A DNA stretch of 64,000 bases. It comes from Lysobacter niastensis (GTDB lineage Bacteria > Pseudomonadota > Gammaproteobacteria > Xanthomonadales > Xanthomonadaceae). The stretch is from NCBI RefSeq assembly GCF_015453285.1, contig NZ_JADLZT010000006.1:62001-126000 (forward strand), in the 5' to 3' direction. The notes below the pieces were generated by a model. That model was not told where the DNA came from. It ran no database searches and saw nothing but the letters and a program-made list of their open reading frames with translations. The position numbers were made by a program, and so were the translations under genes. Positions 1,109-6,750 of this stretch are shown here, piece after piece. Numbering within the stretch: position 1 is the stretch's first letter; every line of letters starts with the position of its first letter.

Positions 1109-2374
1109 ATGACGGCGCACGACATCCATCGCACCATCGAAGCGGTCTGGAGGATCGAATCGGCCCGGCTGATCGCTGGGCTGGCGCGCATGGTCCGCGA
1201 CGTGGGCCTCGCGGAGGAGCTTGCCCAGGACGCGCTGGTCGCCGCGCTGGAACGCTGGCCCGAGGCCGGCGTTCCCGACAACCCCGGTGCGTGGCTGATG
1301 GCCACCGCCAAGCATCGCGCCATCGACCGGCTGCGCCGCAGCAAGCTGCAGCAGCGCAAGCACGAGGAACTCGCGCGCGAACTCGAGGACGACCGCGAGA
1401 ACGAGGTCGAGGCGCGGTTCGAGGCGCTCGACGACCCCATCGGCGATGACCTGCTGCGGCTGGTCTTCACCGCCTGCCATCCGGTCCTGTCGATGGAGGC
1501 GCGTGTCGCACTGACGCTGCGCATGCTCGGCGGCCTGACCACGACCGAGATCGCGCGCGCCTTCCTGGTACCGGAAGCAACCGTGGCCCAGCGCATCGTC
1601 CGCGCCAAGCGCACGCTGTCGGACGCCAACGTGCCGTTCGAGGTGCCGCGCGGCGATGAGCTGGCGGCGCGGCTGGCGTCTGTGCTGGGCGTGATCTACC
1701 TGATCTTCAACGAGGGCTATTCGGCCACGGCTGGCGACGACTGGTTGCGTCCGTCGTTGTGCGAGGAGGCGATGCGTCTCGGACGCGTGGTCGCGGGACT
1801 GGCGCCGAACGAGCCGGAAGTGCACGGGCTGGTCGCATTGATGGAGATCCAGGCCTCGCGCTCGAGGGCGCGGGTCGGCCCGACCGGTGAGCCGATCCTG
1901 TTGCTCGACCAGGACCGGGCGCGCTGGGACCGGTTGCTGATCAACCGGGGACTCGCTTCGCTGGAGCGCGCCGTGAAACTCGGCGGCGAGCGCGGACCGT
2001 ACGCGCTGCAGGCGGCCATCGCCGCCTGTCATGCGCGCGCCCGTACCGCCGACGAGACCGATTGGGCCCGCATCGTCGGCCTGTACGGCGCACTCGCGCA
2101 GGTGATGCCGTCCCCGATCGTCGAGCTCAACCGTGCCGTGGCGTTGTCGATGCTGTTCGGCCCCGAGGCGGGGTTGCGCATCGTCGATGCGCTGGTTGAA
2201 GAGGCCGCGCTGCAGCACTACCACCTGCTGCCCAGTGTGCGCGCCGACCTGCTGAAGAAACTGGGACGCCTGGACGAGGCGCGCGCGGAGTTCGAGAAGG
2301 CCGCCGGCCTGACCGGAAATGCCCGCGAGCGCGAACTGCTGCTGCAGCGTGCAGCAGAGTGCGAGGCCGGCTGA
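1109..2374 (+). CDS. ECF42-type RNA polymerase sigma factor
   Basis: An extracytoplasmic-function sigma factor of 421 aa, about twice the usual ECF length. Region 2 (roughly residues 10-80) contains E-L-A-Q-D-A-L-V-A-A-L-E and an N-P-G-A-W-L motif. Region 4 (about 130-180) has L-T-T-T-E-I-A-R-A-F-L-V-P-E-A-T-V-A-Q-R-I. The C-terminal half is a TPR-like helical extension that begins F-N-E-G-Y-S-A, the hallmark of the ECF42 group (DUF6596). ECF42 members have no classical anti-sigma factor and are usually next to small DGPF/YCII proteins; here the neighbours are VOC and SRPBCC proteins instead. Alternative ATGs exist at 1055 and 1091; 1109 matches the family N-terminus. Its stop overlaps the ATG of the acetyltransferase by one base. 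Confidence 0.88.
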   Translation: MTAHDIHRTIEAVWRIESARLIAGLARMVRDVGLAEELAQDALVAALERWPEAGVPDNPGAWLMATAKHRAIDRLRRSKLQQRKHEELARELEDDRENEVEARFEALDDPIGDDLLRLVFTACHPVLSMEARVALTLRMLGGLTTTEIARAFLVPEATVAQRIVRAKRTLSDANVPFEVPRGDELAARLASVLGVIYLIFNEGYSATAGDDWLRPSLCEEAMRLGRVVAGLAPNEPEVHGLVALMEIQASRSRARVGPTGEPILLLDQDRARWDRLLINRGLASLERAVKLGGERGPYALQAAIAACHARARTADETDWARIVGLYGALAQVMPSPIVELNRAVALSMLFGPEAGLRIVDALVEEAALQHYHLLPSVRADLLKKLGRLDEARAEFEKAAGLTGNARERELLLQRAAECEAG

Positions 2375-2880
2375 TGGATCTCATCGACACGCCGCGCCTG
2401 AAGCTTCAGATGGTGGGCAAAGGCGACGAGGCGCTGTACTGCCGGCTGTATGGCGATGCTCAGGTGATGCGCCATATCGCCGGGCCGCTTCCGCACGAAA
2501 CGGCGCGGCGCAGCTTTGCCATCGCGTGCTGCCAGGCGGCGGAGCGGCCGATGCGCCGCCCCTGGTGGGTCATCCGTGAACACGGGCGGGGTGACGCGGG
2601 CATCGTCGGCCTCGTGCTGGATCGCGAAGAGCCGGAGATCGGCGTCGTGCTGGCGCCCGAGGCGCAGGCGCGCGGACTGGCCGTCGAAGCGATGGATGCG
2701 CTGGCGCGCGCGGCCTTTGCCACCGGATTGGCGTCACGGCTGTGGCTGCGCCATGCGCCCGGCAACGTCGCGATGGCCGCCGTGGCGAGCCGCCTGGGCG
2801 CCACGCGCACGCAGGATGGGACAGGGCCGGACGCCTGCCGCTGGAGCCTGTGCATGGAAATGAAATCCATATCCCGCTAG
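2374..2880 (+). CDS. GNAT family N-acetyltransferase
   Basis: A 168-aa acetyltransferase of the RimJ/RimL-like GNAT group (start M-D-L-I-D-T-P-R-L-K-L). It has the expected order of features: a hydrophobic strand G-I-V-G-L-V-L-D, then E-I-G-V-V-L-A-P-E-A-Q-A-R-G-L-A-V-E-A, which is a degenerate acetyl-CoA loop (family consensus R/Q-x-x-G-x-G/A), and the late N-V-A-M-A-A-V-A-S-R-L-G helix. The substrate is unknown. The ATG shares its A with the sigma factor stop, so the two are probably cotranscribed. The borosin methyltransferase starts 32 bp after its stop, so acetylation of the peptide product is conceivable, but nothing in the sequence proves it. Confidence 0.82.
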   Translation: MDLIDTPRLKLQMVGKGDEALYCRLYGDAQVMRHIAGPLPHETARRSFAIACCQAAERPMRRPWWVIREHGRGDAGIVGLVLDREEPEIGVVLAPEAQARGLAVEAMDALARAAFATGLASRLWLRHAPGNVAMAAVASRLGATRTQDGTGPDACRWSLCMEMKSISR

Positions 2881-2912: not shown

Positions 2913-3728
2913 ATGCCCCAAACCGGAAGCCTGGTCTGCGTCGGCCTCGGCATGATGCTCGGAGCCCACGTCAGCCCGCGATCGCGCAGCCATATCGAGC
3001 AGGCCGATGTCGTGTTCGCTGCCGTGTCCGACCCGGTGGTCGAGCTGTGGCTGCAGCAGATGCACGGCGACGTGCGCAGCCTTCAGTCCTGCTACGCAGC
3101 GGGCAAGTCGCGCCACGACACCTATCGCGAGATGGTCGAGGCGCTGCTCGCCGAAGTCCGAGCCGGACGGCGCGTCTGCGGCGTGTTCTACGGTCATCCG
3201 GGCGTGTTCGCGCAGGCGCCGCACCGTGCCGTTGCCCAGGCCCGGCATGAAGGCTTCCAGGCCCACATGGAGCCCGGCATCTCGGCCGAGGGCTGCCTGT
3301 ACGCGGACCTGGGCATCGATCCGGGCGACGTCGGCTGCCAGCATTACGAGGCCAGCCAGTTCATGTTCTACCGGCGCCGGATCGATCCTTCGGCCTACCT
3401 GATCCTGTGGCAGGTCGGGCATGCCGGCGACCGCTCGGTCAGCCGGAACATCACCGGGCCGGCGTACCGCCGCCTGCTGGTCGATCTGCTGGCCGAGGAC
3501 TATCCCCTCGACCATGCCGTGATCGCCTACGAAGCTGCTACCCTTCCGATCTCGTCGCCGCGGACGGAGGGGATGCCGCTTGCCGCGATAGTGGATGCCG
3601 ACCTGCGGCTGCAGACCACGCTGGTGATACCGCCAGCCCGGCCTCTGCAACGTAACGAGGCAATGCTGGACCGAATTGCCGCGCTAGATCGTGGGAGCGT
3701 CCTGGGCGAGCCGATCCATTTGCCGTAA
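2913..3728 (+). CDS. split borosin peptide backbone alpha-N-methyltransferase (SonM/OphM-type)
   Basis: A tetrapyrrole-methylase-fold SAM-dependent methyltransferase of 271 aa. It begins G-S-L-V-C-V-G-L-G at residue 5, contains Y-G-H-P-G-V-F (about 93-99), M-E-P-G-I-S-A-E-G (about 119-127), D-L-G-I-D-P-G-D, E-A-S-Q-F-M-F-Y and L-W-Q-V-G, and ends with an I-P-P-A-R region. These follow the Shewanella SonM enzyme and the methyltransferase part of fungal OphMA closely. Tyr61, Arg67 and Tyr71 keep the spacing of the OphMA catalytic Tyr66/Arg72/Tyr76. Known relatives iteratively methylate backbone amides of a peptide. Unlike OphMA, this protein ends after the catalytic domain and carries no fused core, so its substrate must be separate; the gene at 3765 fits. 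There is no clear ribosome binding site for the ATG at 2913, so translation may be coupled to the upstream gene. Siroheme or cobalamin enzymes share the fold but lack this motif set. Confidence 0.9.
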   Translation: MPQTGSLVCVGLGMMLGAHVSPRSRSHIEQADVVFAAVSDPVVELWLQQMHGDVRSLQSCYAAGKSRHDTYREMVEALLAEVRAGRRVCGVFYGHPGVFAQAPHRAVAQARHEGFQAHMEPGISAEGCLYADLGIDPGDVGCQHYEASQFMFYRRRIDPSAYLILWQVGHAGDRSVSRNITGPAYRRLLVDLLAEDYPLDHAVIAYEAATLPISSPRTEGMPLAAIVDADLRLQTTLVIPPARPLQRNEAMLDRIAALDRGSVLGEPIHLP

Positions 3729-3764
3729 TACCTTCGCAACATCACGCATAAGGGGAAATGCAAC

Positions 3765-4046
3765 GTGTCCGAGGTCATTCGTTTTCTGGAAAGCATGGGC
3801 CGCAACCCGGCCATGTCGGCGGCGCAGTTCGCCGCGAGCGTTTCGATGCTGCAGGCCGACGACGCGCTGAAGCAGGCATTGCTCAAGGGCAATGCGGCGT
3901 CGCTCAACGATCTGCTGGGCGGCCGTGCCGCGCCGATGATGATGAGCCAGTACGCGCCGCTGGAAGAGCCGCAGCGCCGCGACGACGACCAGGAAGGCGA
4001 GGAGCCCTCGCAGGATCCGACGCCGGATTCGGAACAGGTCAACTGA
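3765..4046 (+). CDS. candidate split borosin precursor peptide
   Basis: A 93-aa protein starting at GTG (3765) with AGGGGAAA at 3751-3758; an ATG at 3758 is in another frame and gives no sensible product. Residues 1-52 form a predicted helical domain (V-I-R-F-L-E-S-M-G ... S-L-N-D-L-L-G-G). This matches the plan of the borosin-binding domain of SonA: a short helix near the N-terminus, a middle rich in Ala/Gln, and a final Leu-rich turn before a Gly. A short stretch A-A-P-M-M-M-S-Q-Y-A-P-L-E-E-P (about residues 55-69) follows and is the likeliest core; then comes a strongly acidic tail of D, E, Q, P and S to residue 93. It lies 36 bp after the methyltransferase. Methylation sites, any protease cut and the final product cannot be read from sequence. 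A general small helical protein is the alternative, but the pairing makes that less likely. Confidence 0.8.
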   Translation: MSEVIRFLESMGRNPAMSAAQFAASVSMLQADDALKQALLKGNAASLNDLLGGRAAPMMMSQYAPLEEPQRRDDDQEGEEPSQDPTPDSEQVN

Positions 4047-4062: not shown

Positions 4063-5886
4063 ATGCTCGTCGCGCGCAAGCTGCTGCCCTGGGTGATCTT
4101 CACCGGGATCTGCCTTGCGCTGGGTAACGGCAATGCCGCGACTTCGGTCGCGGCATTGTTGAGCCGGGCGGAAGCCGTGCGCAGCTCGGATCCCGGTGAG
4201 TTCCAGCAGCTGCTGGTCGAACTCGAGGAGGCCAGGCCCAATGCCTCGTCGGCGCAGCGCGACCAGATCGCGTACCTGCAGGCATACCGGCAGTCGTACC
4301 TCGGGCGATACAACATCGCCATCCCGGCGCTGCAAAAGCTCGCCCGGGACGCGACCACGGTCGAAACCCGCTATCGCGCCGGCGCACTGATGGTCAATGG
4401 CTACGCGGTCACGCGTCAGTTCACCGAAGGCCTGCGCCAGCTCGACCAGACGCTGGAGCTGGTGGATCGAATCGAGGATACGGACCTGCGTGCCCACGGC
4501 CTGGGCGTGGCGGCCGTGATGTACAACGAAATCGGCGAGTACCGGCTCGGCCTGCATTACGCCGAGCGTATCCTCGCCAATCCTCCGCATGGACGCGCCC
4601 GCTGCTTCGCCGGGCAGTACCGCGCCGAGGCCCTGTGGCAGCTCAAGCGCCTGCCTGCCAGCGACGCCATGCTCCGCGATGCGATCCAGCATTGCGTGGC
4701 CGAAGACGAAGCCGTGATCGCCAACCTGTTGCGCGGAACCCTGGCCCGGCAGTGGGCGTCGCAGGGGCAGCGCGGCAAGGCCATCGCCCTGTTGCAGCAG
4801 CACATGCCGGAGATCGAGTCGACGCGGTATGCGCGGCTGGTCGGCGAAGCCCATTCGCTATTGGCCGAACTGTTGTTGGCCCAGGGCAGCCTCGTCGAGG
4901 CCGAGCGCAACGCACGCGCCGCGATTTCGCACGGTCCCGCCATGCCGCATTCGCAGCCGCTGGTGGCCGCCTTCAAGGCGCTCTACGAGATCGCCAGCCG
5001 CCGCGGTGATACCGCCGCGGCGCTGGATTACTACCGGCGCTACGCCGAGGCCGACAAGGCCTACCTCAACGACGTGAAGACGCGCGAGCTGGCCTACCAG
5101 TTCGTGCGCCAGGAAACCGCGCAGAAGACCCAGCAGATCGAACTGCTCAACCGCCAGAACCAGGTGCTGCAGCTGCAGCAGCGGGTGGCGAAGCAGAACG
5201 CACAGAACACGCGGCTGGTGGTGCTGTTGCTGCTGGTGGTCGTCGCCGGCCTGGGGTACTGGGCCTATTGGATCCGCCGCCGGCAGAAGGCGCTGCGCCG
5301 CTTCGCCGAGACCGACGCGCTGACCGGCGCCAGCAATCGCCACCATTTCACGCAGAGCGCCGAGCAGGCGCTGGCCCAGTGCGCGCGAAACGGCGAACAG
5401 GCTGCGCTGGTGATGTTCGATCTGGACCGCTTCAAGGAAATCAACGACACCTACGGCCACGCCGCCGGCGACTGGGTGCTGCGCGAGGTCGCTGACGCCT
5501 GCCGCAGCTTTTGCCGGGGCATCGACTGCTTTGGCCGGCTCGGCGGCGAGGAGTTCGCGTTCCTGCTGCTCGGTTGCGACCTGGCCGCGGCGACGCGCCT
5601 GGCCGAGGATTGCCGCGTGCGGTTGACCCGCATCGACACGCGGCCCAGCGGGCACAACTTCACCGTGACGGCGAGCTTTGGCGTCAGTGCCACGGCCTCG
5701 TCGGGTTTCGGCCTGGAAGTGCTGATCTCGCACGCCGACCGCATGCTCTATCGGGCCAAGCGTGGCGGCCGCAACCAGGTGCGGGCGTACACGCCGGACA
5801 TGCCGATCGCCGAAACGTCGCGTCGCGAAGAAGACTGCGAGCAGGAGCCGGCCCAGATACCGGCTTTCGGCGCTTCCGCGCCCTGA
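4063..5886 (+). CDS. TPR-containing membrane diguanylate cyclase (GGDEF)
   Basis: A 607-aa c-di-GMP synthase. A signal peptide or membrane start (residues 1-25) is followed by an extracytoplasmic TPR-like helical region (about 28-340), a coiled-coil stretch rich in Gln and Asn (about 345-383), one transmembrane segment (about 385-405) and a cytoplasmic GGDEF domain (about 415-580). The active-site signature is GGEEF at 494-498. An inhibitory-site RxxD, here R-G-I-D at 485-488, lies exactly five residues before it, so product inhibition is expected. D-L-D-R-F-K-E-I-N-D-T-Y-G-H-A-A-G-D is intact, so the enzyme should be active. The ATG lies 16 bp after the precursor peptide stop, suggesting cotranscription with the borosin genes, though GGDEF genes of this design are common and the link may be accidental. 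Confidence 0.93.
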   Translation: MLVARKLLPWVIFTGICLALGNGNAATSVAALLSRAEAVRSSDPGEFQQLLVELEEARPNASSAQRDQIAYLQAYRQSYLGRYNIAIPALQKLARDATTVETRYRAGALMVNGYAVTRQFTEGLRQLDQTLELVDRIEDTDLRAHGLGVAAVMYNEIGEYRLGLHYAERILANPPHGRARCFAGQYRAEALWQLKRLPASDAMLRDAIQHCVAEDEAVIANLLRGTLARQWASQGQRGKAIALLQQHMPEIESTRYARLVGEAHSLLAELLLAQGSLVEAERNARAAISHGPAMPHSQPLVAAFKALYEIASRRGDTAAALDYYRRYAEADKAYLNDVKTRELAYQFVRQETAQKTQQIELLNRQNQVLQLQQRVAKQNAQNTRLVVLLLLVVVAGLGYWAYWIRRRQKALRRFAETDALTGASNRHHFTQSAEQALAQCARNGEQAALVMFDLDRFKEINDTYGHAAGDWVLREVADACRSFCRGIDCFGRLGGEEFAFLLLGCDLAAATRLAEDCRVRLTRIDTRPSGHNFTVTASFGVSATASSGFGLEVLISHADRMLYRAKRGGRNQVRAYTPDMPIAETSRREEDCEQEPAQIPAFGASAP

Positions 5887-6526: not shown

Positions 6527-6541
6527 ACCGCTCGGGCTGAC

Positions 6542-6657
6542 TGCCCTCACCCCAACCCTCTCCCGCAAGCGGGAGAGGGGGAAGGAAAGCAGACTCAGAA
6601 AGCGACTGGCGGGCTTGCTTTTCCCTCTCCCGCTTGCGGGAGAGGGCAGGGTGAGGG
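6542..6657. repeat. facing pair of GC-rich palindromic (REP-like) repeats
   Basis: Two copies of a hairpin element face each other in the gap between 6526 and 6751. Copy one has CCCTCTCCCGC (6556-6566), an AA loop and GCGGGAGAGGG (6569-6579), a perfect 11-bp stem. Copy two has the same arms at 6623-6633 and 6636-6646 with a TT loop, so it is the reverse complement of copy one. Flanks are also inverted: TGCCCTCACCCC at 6542 against CAGGGTGAGGGC at 6646-6657. This is the layout of a BIME-like REP doublet. It may also help end transcription, although there is no U-tract. Confidence 0.8.
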
Positions 6658-6750
6658 CGCACTTGCTTTGGCAGGCCTGCGAACATCGCCCATCGCATTC
6701 ACGTGATGCGCTGCTGCCTAGAATCGGAACGTCCGTTGGAGAGTTGCGCC

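Follow-up and report, generated by a model that had tools for sequence, protein, structure and literature searches.

A predicted split borosin gene pair and its linkage to a periplasmic-TPR diguanylate cyclase in Lysobacter niastensis and related loci

The window analysed (the whole stretch of 64,000 nucleotides taken from Lysobacter niastensis contig NZ_JADLZT010000006.1, positions 62,001 to 126,000) was found to contain an operon-like unit of four genes on the forward strand. These are predicted to encode, in order, a GNAT acetyltransferase (2374..2880), a SonM-type stand-alone peptide backbone alpha-N-methyltransferase (2913..3728), a borosin precursor peptide (3765..4046) and a diguanylate cyclase with a periplasmic TPR sensor (4063..5886), separated by 32, 36 and 16 bp respectively. 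The GNAT open reading frame (Pfam Acetyltransf_3, E = 1e-20) opens at a GTG at 2359; its likely start is the ATG at 2374, which overlaps the stop of the upstream gene. A reading of this DNA from sequence only had described the enzyme and precursor as a complete minimal split borosin locus, and this description was too narrow, as the GNAT gene and the cyclase also belong to the unit. Further along the window, an intergenic inverted-repeat element of the CCCTCTCCCGCAAGCGGGAGAGGG type (6541-6660) resembles a REP-like or terminator repeat.

For comparison, 71 loci were chosen by similarity to the enzyme alone. A GNAT homologue was present in 44 of them, nearly always directly adjoining the methyltransferase, before or after it. 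Its position varies; it lies ahead of the enzyme in most loci and between enzyme and precursor in Rheinheimera, Steroidobacter and Tahibacter relatives, where the precursor stays with the cyclase.

The enzyme (271 amino acids) belongs to a single Pfam family, TP_methylase (PF00590, E = 2e-20), of which two further genes are found elsewhere in the same genome. When it was searched against all PDB sequences, the best matches were SonM constructs (E = 1e-75, residues 5-255 of 271, 49% identity over 251 residues), followed by the fungal fused borosins dbOphMA, MroMA and OphMA (E = 1e-47 to 1e-51), with a precorrin-2 methyltransferase as the lowest match (E = 8e-4). The SonM/OphM-type motifs claimed for it from sequence are thereby borne out, and the Tyr61/Arg67/Tyr71 triad was found exactly where it had been placed. 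Window residues Y61, R67, Y71 and Y93 align with SonM Y58, R67, Y71 and Y93, and counterparts of SonM Q55, Y58, R67, Y71, Y93, F99 and W166 are all kept (Q58, Y61, R67, Y71, Y93, F99 and W166 in window numbering) and are invariant across the 71 aligned enzymes. Kinetic data have shown that R67, Y71 and Y58 of SonM are important for catalysis (PMC8429565). A three-residue insertion of SonM is absent from the 61/67/71 spacing of the window enzyme, and an OphMA-like spacing, as had been proposed, is plausible from the alignment. The loop wrapped by the borosin-binding domain (BBD) in SonM (residues 208-216) is conserved, reading AANLPIQAP in SonM and AATLPISSP in the window enzyme, while SonM F179 and I234 are changed in the window enzyme. 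The 2913-3728 reading frame carries no fused core peptide at its end, also as first read.

Membership of the TP_methylase fold raises the alternative that the enzyme is a small-molecule methyltransferase of the siroheme or cobalamin pathway and that the small reading frame behind it is unrelated. Weak matches to NCBIfam cobalamin-pathway models were indeed obtained, far under their cut-offs (11-21 bits against cut-offs of 163-391), and the YabN model scored 37 against a cut-off of 525. Set against these are the difference between the SonM and precorrin-2 methyltransferase scores given above, the invariant borosin residues and the conserved BBD-type neighbour, and we consider this alternative very improbable; on the scores, a siroheme or cobalamin methyltransferase identity was rejected. 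The closer match to such enzymes, which the sequence-only reading had itself named as the result that would speak against it, did not appear. At a separate locus, a single reading frame of 545 amino acids contains two fused borosin-type methyltransferase domains (L169, 3829-5463, in genome G118; also in G195).

The precursor gene encodes 93 amino acids from a GTG start preceded by an AAGGGG ribosome-binding site. In-frame homologues adjoin the enzyme in almost all related loci, and this small reading frame is therefore not a chance occurrence; loci missed by the precursor profile mostly have, at the corresponding position, a short reading frame in which the core-like motif and the acidic tail recur. 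An alignment of 40 precursor sequences comprises an N-terminal domain, then a short motif and then an acidic tail. A single-sequence search of PDB and Pfam returned nothing meaningful, and Pfam gave no consistent family across all precursor homologues; the 40-sequence profile was required, and its top seven matches among all PDB sequences were SonA constructs (E about 1e-3, SonA residues 1-53). AlphaFold2 modelled residues 3-50 confidently as four helices, the pLDDT per block being about 86-95 for residues 1-50, and gave the tail low confidence. A Foldseek search with this model ranked SonA first with an E-value above 3, which is not significant alone. The leader (residues 1-52; 3765..3920) is thus assigned as a borosin-binding domain by sequence profile, with the predicted structure only consistent with it. 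Inspection of the N-terminus revealed no signal-peptide-like stretch; it is formed by the BBD helix MSEVIRFLESMG.

Just past the BBD, 57 of 80 precursors carry a motif of roughly hydrophobic-x-C-x(2-4)-P-(D/E). The precursor of genome G033 (locus L130) has four tandem copies of it (SCLVFTPEE, YFCWVATPEE, YFCAVNTPE and YFCGVLTPEE), and the motif is therefore taken to mark the core. On the basis of the alignment, this motif survey and the tandem cores, the presumed core region of the window precursor is MMMSQYAP (residues 58-65; 3936..3959). Its version of the motif, MMMSQYAPLEEP, is atypical, with Met instead of the common Cys and Gln for Val/Ile; the precursors of L010 and L013 likewise have Met-rich cores that lack Cys. 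The remainder (residues 66-93; 3960..4043) is an acidic and, judging from its low pLDDT, disordered tail. In two loci (L034, 6426-6854, and L036, 6470-6898) the C-terminal tail of the precursor is long and lysine-rich (KKKSSKKKGSKKK...) instead of acidic. Luteimonas-type precursors (L039, L042, L043, L045 and L047) keep the core motif on a much altered, eroded leader, which leaves their recognition by the enzyme to be explained.

Searches of both proteins against SonM and SonA, which the sequence-only reading had proposed, thus returned SonM constructs as best for the enzyme and SonA constructs for the precursor profile, and the architecture it gave for the second gene (a BBD, a short core and an acidic tail) agrees with the alignment, the SonA matches and the predicted helices. 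Taken with the invariant active site and the precursor homologues beside the enzyme, 2913-3728 and 3765-4046 very probably encode a borosin enzyme-precursor pair. By sequence it is a type IV split borosin, a known kind (PMC8429565). Like SonM/SonA of Shewanella oneidensis (PMC8429565; PDB 7LTC), it consists of a stand-alone methyltransferase of similar size with the same active-site residues and a separate small precursor with an N-terminal BBD and a C-terminal core; unlike that system, the enzyme is only 49% identical, the core sequence is another one and an acidic tail follows the core. As split borosins of this kind have already been described, the pair alone is not a discovery. From the homology to SonM/SonA, the methyltransferase would, with little doubt, dock the helical BBD leader of the precursor and N-methylate backbone amides of the short hydrophobic core.

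The fourth gene encodes a protein of 607 amino acids (PF00990, E = 2e-42) with a signal peptide, a periplasmic TPR sensor domain (residues 25-347; 4135..5103), a membrane helix at about 386-404 and a GGDEF diguanylate cyclase domain. The window cyclase has an intact GGEEF active site and an RxxD I-site (RGID), and a GG(D/E)EF active site is present in 70 of 71 cyclase sequences. In a structural model (mean pLDDT 92) a TPR-like solenoid (29-313) is followed by a long helix through the membrane and then by GGDEF. Pfam TPR models match homologues of the sensor, TPR_12 doing so in 16 of 53. Two cysteines of the periplasmic part, C181 and C211, are invariant; they are the only periplasmic cysteines of the window cyclase after the signal peptide and probably form a disulfide.

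When the cyclase model was compared using VIA-align, nine of the ten non-GGDEF rows were Rap/NprR receptors (Z 23-25 over about 300 residues), the rows on the sensor part including several Rap structures with pheromone, RapF, Rap with CSF, and NprR. In the model, the sensor fold therefore resembles that of peptide-binding TPR receptors, which does not by itself prove peptide binding. This likeness shows no function, since TPR is a common fold and APPBP2, an unrelated TPR protein, scores Z 24.3 beside Rap in the same comparison. The genome encodes another sensor cyclase of this family elsewhere (L125; contig 14, 11669-12748), with a sensor that is 48% identical; it lies beside a putA-like gene, and neither a precursor nor a methyltransferase was found beside it.

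In 70 of the 71 loci the enzyme is accompanied by a cyclase that is homologous to the window protein over its whole length. The one exception (L010) is a locus of 6195 bases in which the contig end is reached 78 bases past the precursor. With cyclases called using the sensor profile, the next gene after the precursor was a cyclase in 75 of 79 cases, and the gene immediately before the cyclase was a precursor in 75 of 81. The precursor-cyclase pair is doubled beside a single enzyme in six loci (L032, L035, L037, L044, L050 and L071), and genome G054 has a second pair (L128) away from the enzyme. Three Shewanella loci (L051, L060 and L068) also carry the cyclase.

The same association was observed at the level of whole genomes. 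Among 59 relatives (enzyme called at E below 1e-50; cyclase residues 26-387 as sensor query), the sensor was found in 24 of 25 enzyme-bearing genomes but not in any of the 34 without the enzyme. A survey of 299 genomes from the order gave 134 with both, nine with the enzyme only, 20 with the sensor only and 136 with neither, counts which ignore kinship. Among the enzyme-only genomes, G214 and G266 encode cyclase-methyltransferase fusions with a sensor too divergent for calling, a GGDEF gene lies close by in G217 and G252, and in G065 the locus is truncated by the end of its contig. The trait is patchy over genera and families. Enzyme and sensor distances are correlated (r = 0.75), which was not used as proof because it is expected from shared descent. 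Both enzyme and sensor were absent from all 11 same-genus genomes searched; in these the gene groups that flank the unit on its two sides are widely separated, and a boundary of gain or loss could therefore not be drawn. One genome reported as 100% complete (G289) encodes a sensor cyclase (L162) and no methyltransferase; this could be an eavesdropper or a remnant.

Bacterial borosins are not known to have an assigned natural role. In our opinion the pair itself is of less interest than the near-obligate pairing of precursor and periplasmic TPR cyclase, which makes it testable whether the peptide functions as a c-di-GMP signal. We put the chance that the cyclase is a receptor for the N-methylated peptide at a little under even. 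On this proposal, following methylation the core would be freed by an unlinked protease, perhaps acetylated (N-terminally or on a side chain) by the GNAT protein, and delivered to the periplasm by export or membrane permeation; there it might, with the same near-even chance, bind to the TPR domain of the neighbouring cyclase and alter c-di-GMP synthesis. This proposal is favoured by the linkage in 70/71 loci, the 75/79 adjacency, the duplicated pairs, the further pair in G054, the fusions, the co-occurrence in genomes, the sensor fold, the signal peptide, membrane helix, GGEEF and I-site of the cyclase, and the four tandem cores and C39-peptidase ABC exporter of G033. Points that weigh against it are the lack of a Sec signal on the precursor, the absence of an exporter or protease linked to the window operon, the failure to find a pepsin homologue in this genome (in searches with no positive control), the commonness of the TPR fold, a co-occurrence counted without regard to kinship, the sensor-only genomes, the second sensor cyclase L125 and the atypical window core.

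Such a system would work in the manner of RRNPP propeptide-receptor pairs, except that the peptide would be modified and the receptor would be a membrane cyclase. As in the RRNPP systems (Rap-Phr and NprR-NprX; PMC10075063), a small propeptide gene adjoins a TPR receptor gene, and the sensor has a Rap/NprR-like fold (Z 23-25). The precursor, at 93 amino acids and 16 bp before the cyclase, falls within the 10-100 amino acids of an RRNPP propeptide adjoining its receptor gene. Where RRNPP receptors are cytoplasmic and of 250-500 amino acids, the window protein has 607, with a signal peptide and membrane helix, and is a membrane cyclase with periplasmic TPRs; the hosts are Gram-negative. Where RRNPP propeptides are secreted by Sec (or PptAB), the N-terminus of the window propeptide is, on inspection, occupied by a BBD and not by a secretion signal; the peptide is probably N-methylated, judging from the homology. 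The broader idea that bacterial split borosins of this type are pheromones, a dedicated periplasmic TPR diguanylate cyclase reading the N-methylated peptide as an RRNPP-like pair that writes into c-di-GMP, is put forward tentatively. If true, it would answer what bacterial borosins are for (a signal for c-di-GMP) and, in many Gammaproteobacteria, connect a pathway for modified peptides with a switch that is central to bacterial lifestyle; it would also suggest membrane passage and protease resistance as the reason for backbone methylation.

In four genomes (G015, G025, G214 and G266) the cyclase and the methyltransferase are fused in one protein. These proteins (L131, L132, L166 and L167; about 850-1005 amino acids) consist of a TPR sensor, a membrane helix, GGDEF and a borosin methyltransferase, and a BBD precursor precedes each. 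The fusions place the enzyme next to GGDEF in the cytoplasm, as would be expected if information flowed in reverse, with the periplasmic sensor responding to a cue from outside and the c-di-GMP formed at the membrane turning the methyltransferase or precursor maturation on or off. The window methyltransferase, however, is a separate gene, in which Pfam and NCBIfam model searches revealed no c-di-GMP-binding domain, and it is the precursor, not the enzyme, that is duplicated along with the cyclase; reverse flow is accordingly held to be improbable.

A GGDEF domain is drawn within the borosin architectures named in the Figure 1 legend of PMC11395268 (citing earlier work), a paper which also sets out the classification of borosin types. 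To the extent of that legend, the association of borosins with GGDEF is itself not new. The architecture drawn there probably corresponds to fusions of the G015, G025, G214 and G266 type. It has GGDEF and borosin parts together, as in the window; the window cyclase differs from it, as far as that legend goes, in that it is encoded separately and carries a signal peptide and a TPR sensor of its own. In a literature search that left the original split-borosin surveys outside its scope, nothing beyond this paper was found to link RiPP N-methyltransferases to diguanylate cyclases or to propose a cyclase as the peptide receptor.

It is also possible, if on the doubtful side, that the split borosin pathway is real and the peptide acts elsewhere (in metal capture, antibiosis, or interaction with a host or surface), the cyclase reading another signal and sharing the operon only since the cell requires the peptide and the sessile state at the same time. 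Operon neighbours often share regulation only, many inputs are known to drive cyclases, and in G033 a C39-peptidase ABC exporter takes the place of the cyclase, which implies that the peptide can be useful where there is no cyclase. This reading accounts poorly for the duplication of precursor and cyclase together and their adjacency even when other genes move, for a sensor family nearly confined to enzyme-bearing genomes, and for a sensor model that resembles peptide receptors. Overall, we regard it as about an even chance that this is a type IV split borosin operon coupled to a receptor of its own.

With regard to maturation, in 11 of the 71 loci the methyltransferase has a pepsin-like PF00026 protein as a neighbour; these proteins are candidate leader peptidases and are possibly related to shewasins. 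A 2024 paper reportedly identified a borosin precursor as a substrate of shewasin A. Proteins of this family beside the methyltransferase recall the shewasins, bacterial pepsin-like peptidases (PMC4814920), of which shewasin D is mainly cytoplasmic (PMC4814920), a location that would fit leader removal before export. In the window's genome, unlike those 11 loci, no pepsin homologue was found with PF00026 or the L010 homologue as query, a search run with no positive control, so that absence is not proven. The G033 operon (L130) comprises the four-core precursor, a GNAT gene, the methyltransferase and the C39-peptidase ABC exporter, the next gene being maybe HlyD-like, and no TPR-GGDEF cyclase was found beside it. 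Its product is likely an exported multi-core borosin, and, given the exporter, at least one variant would seem to be made for export.
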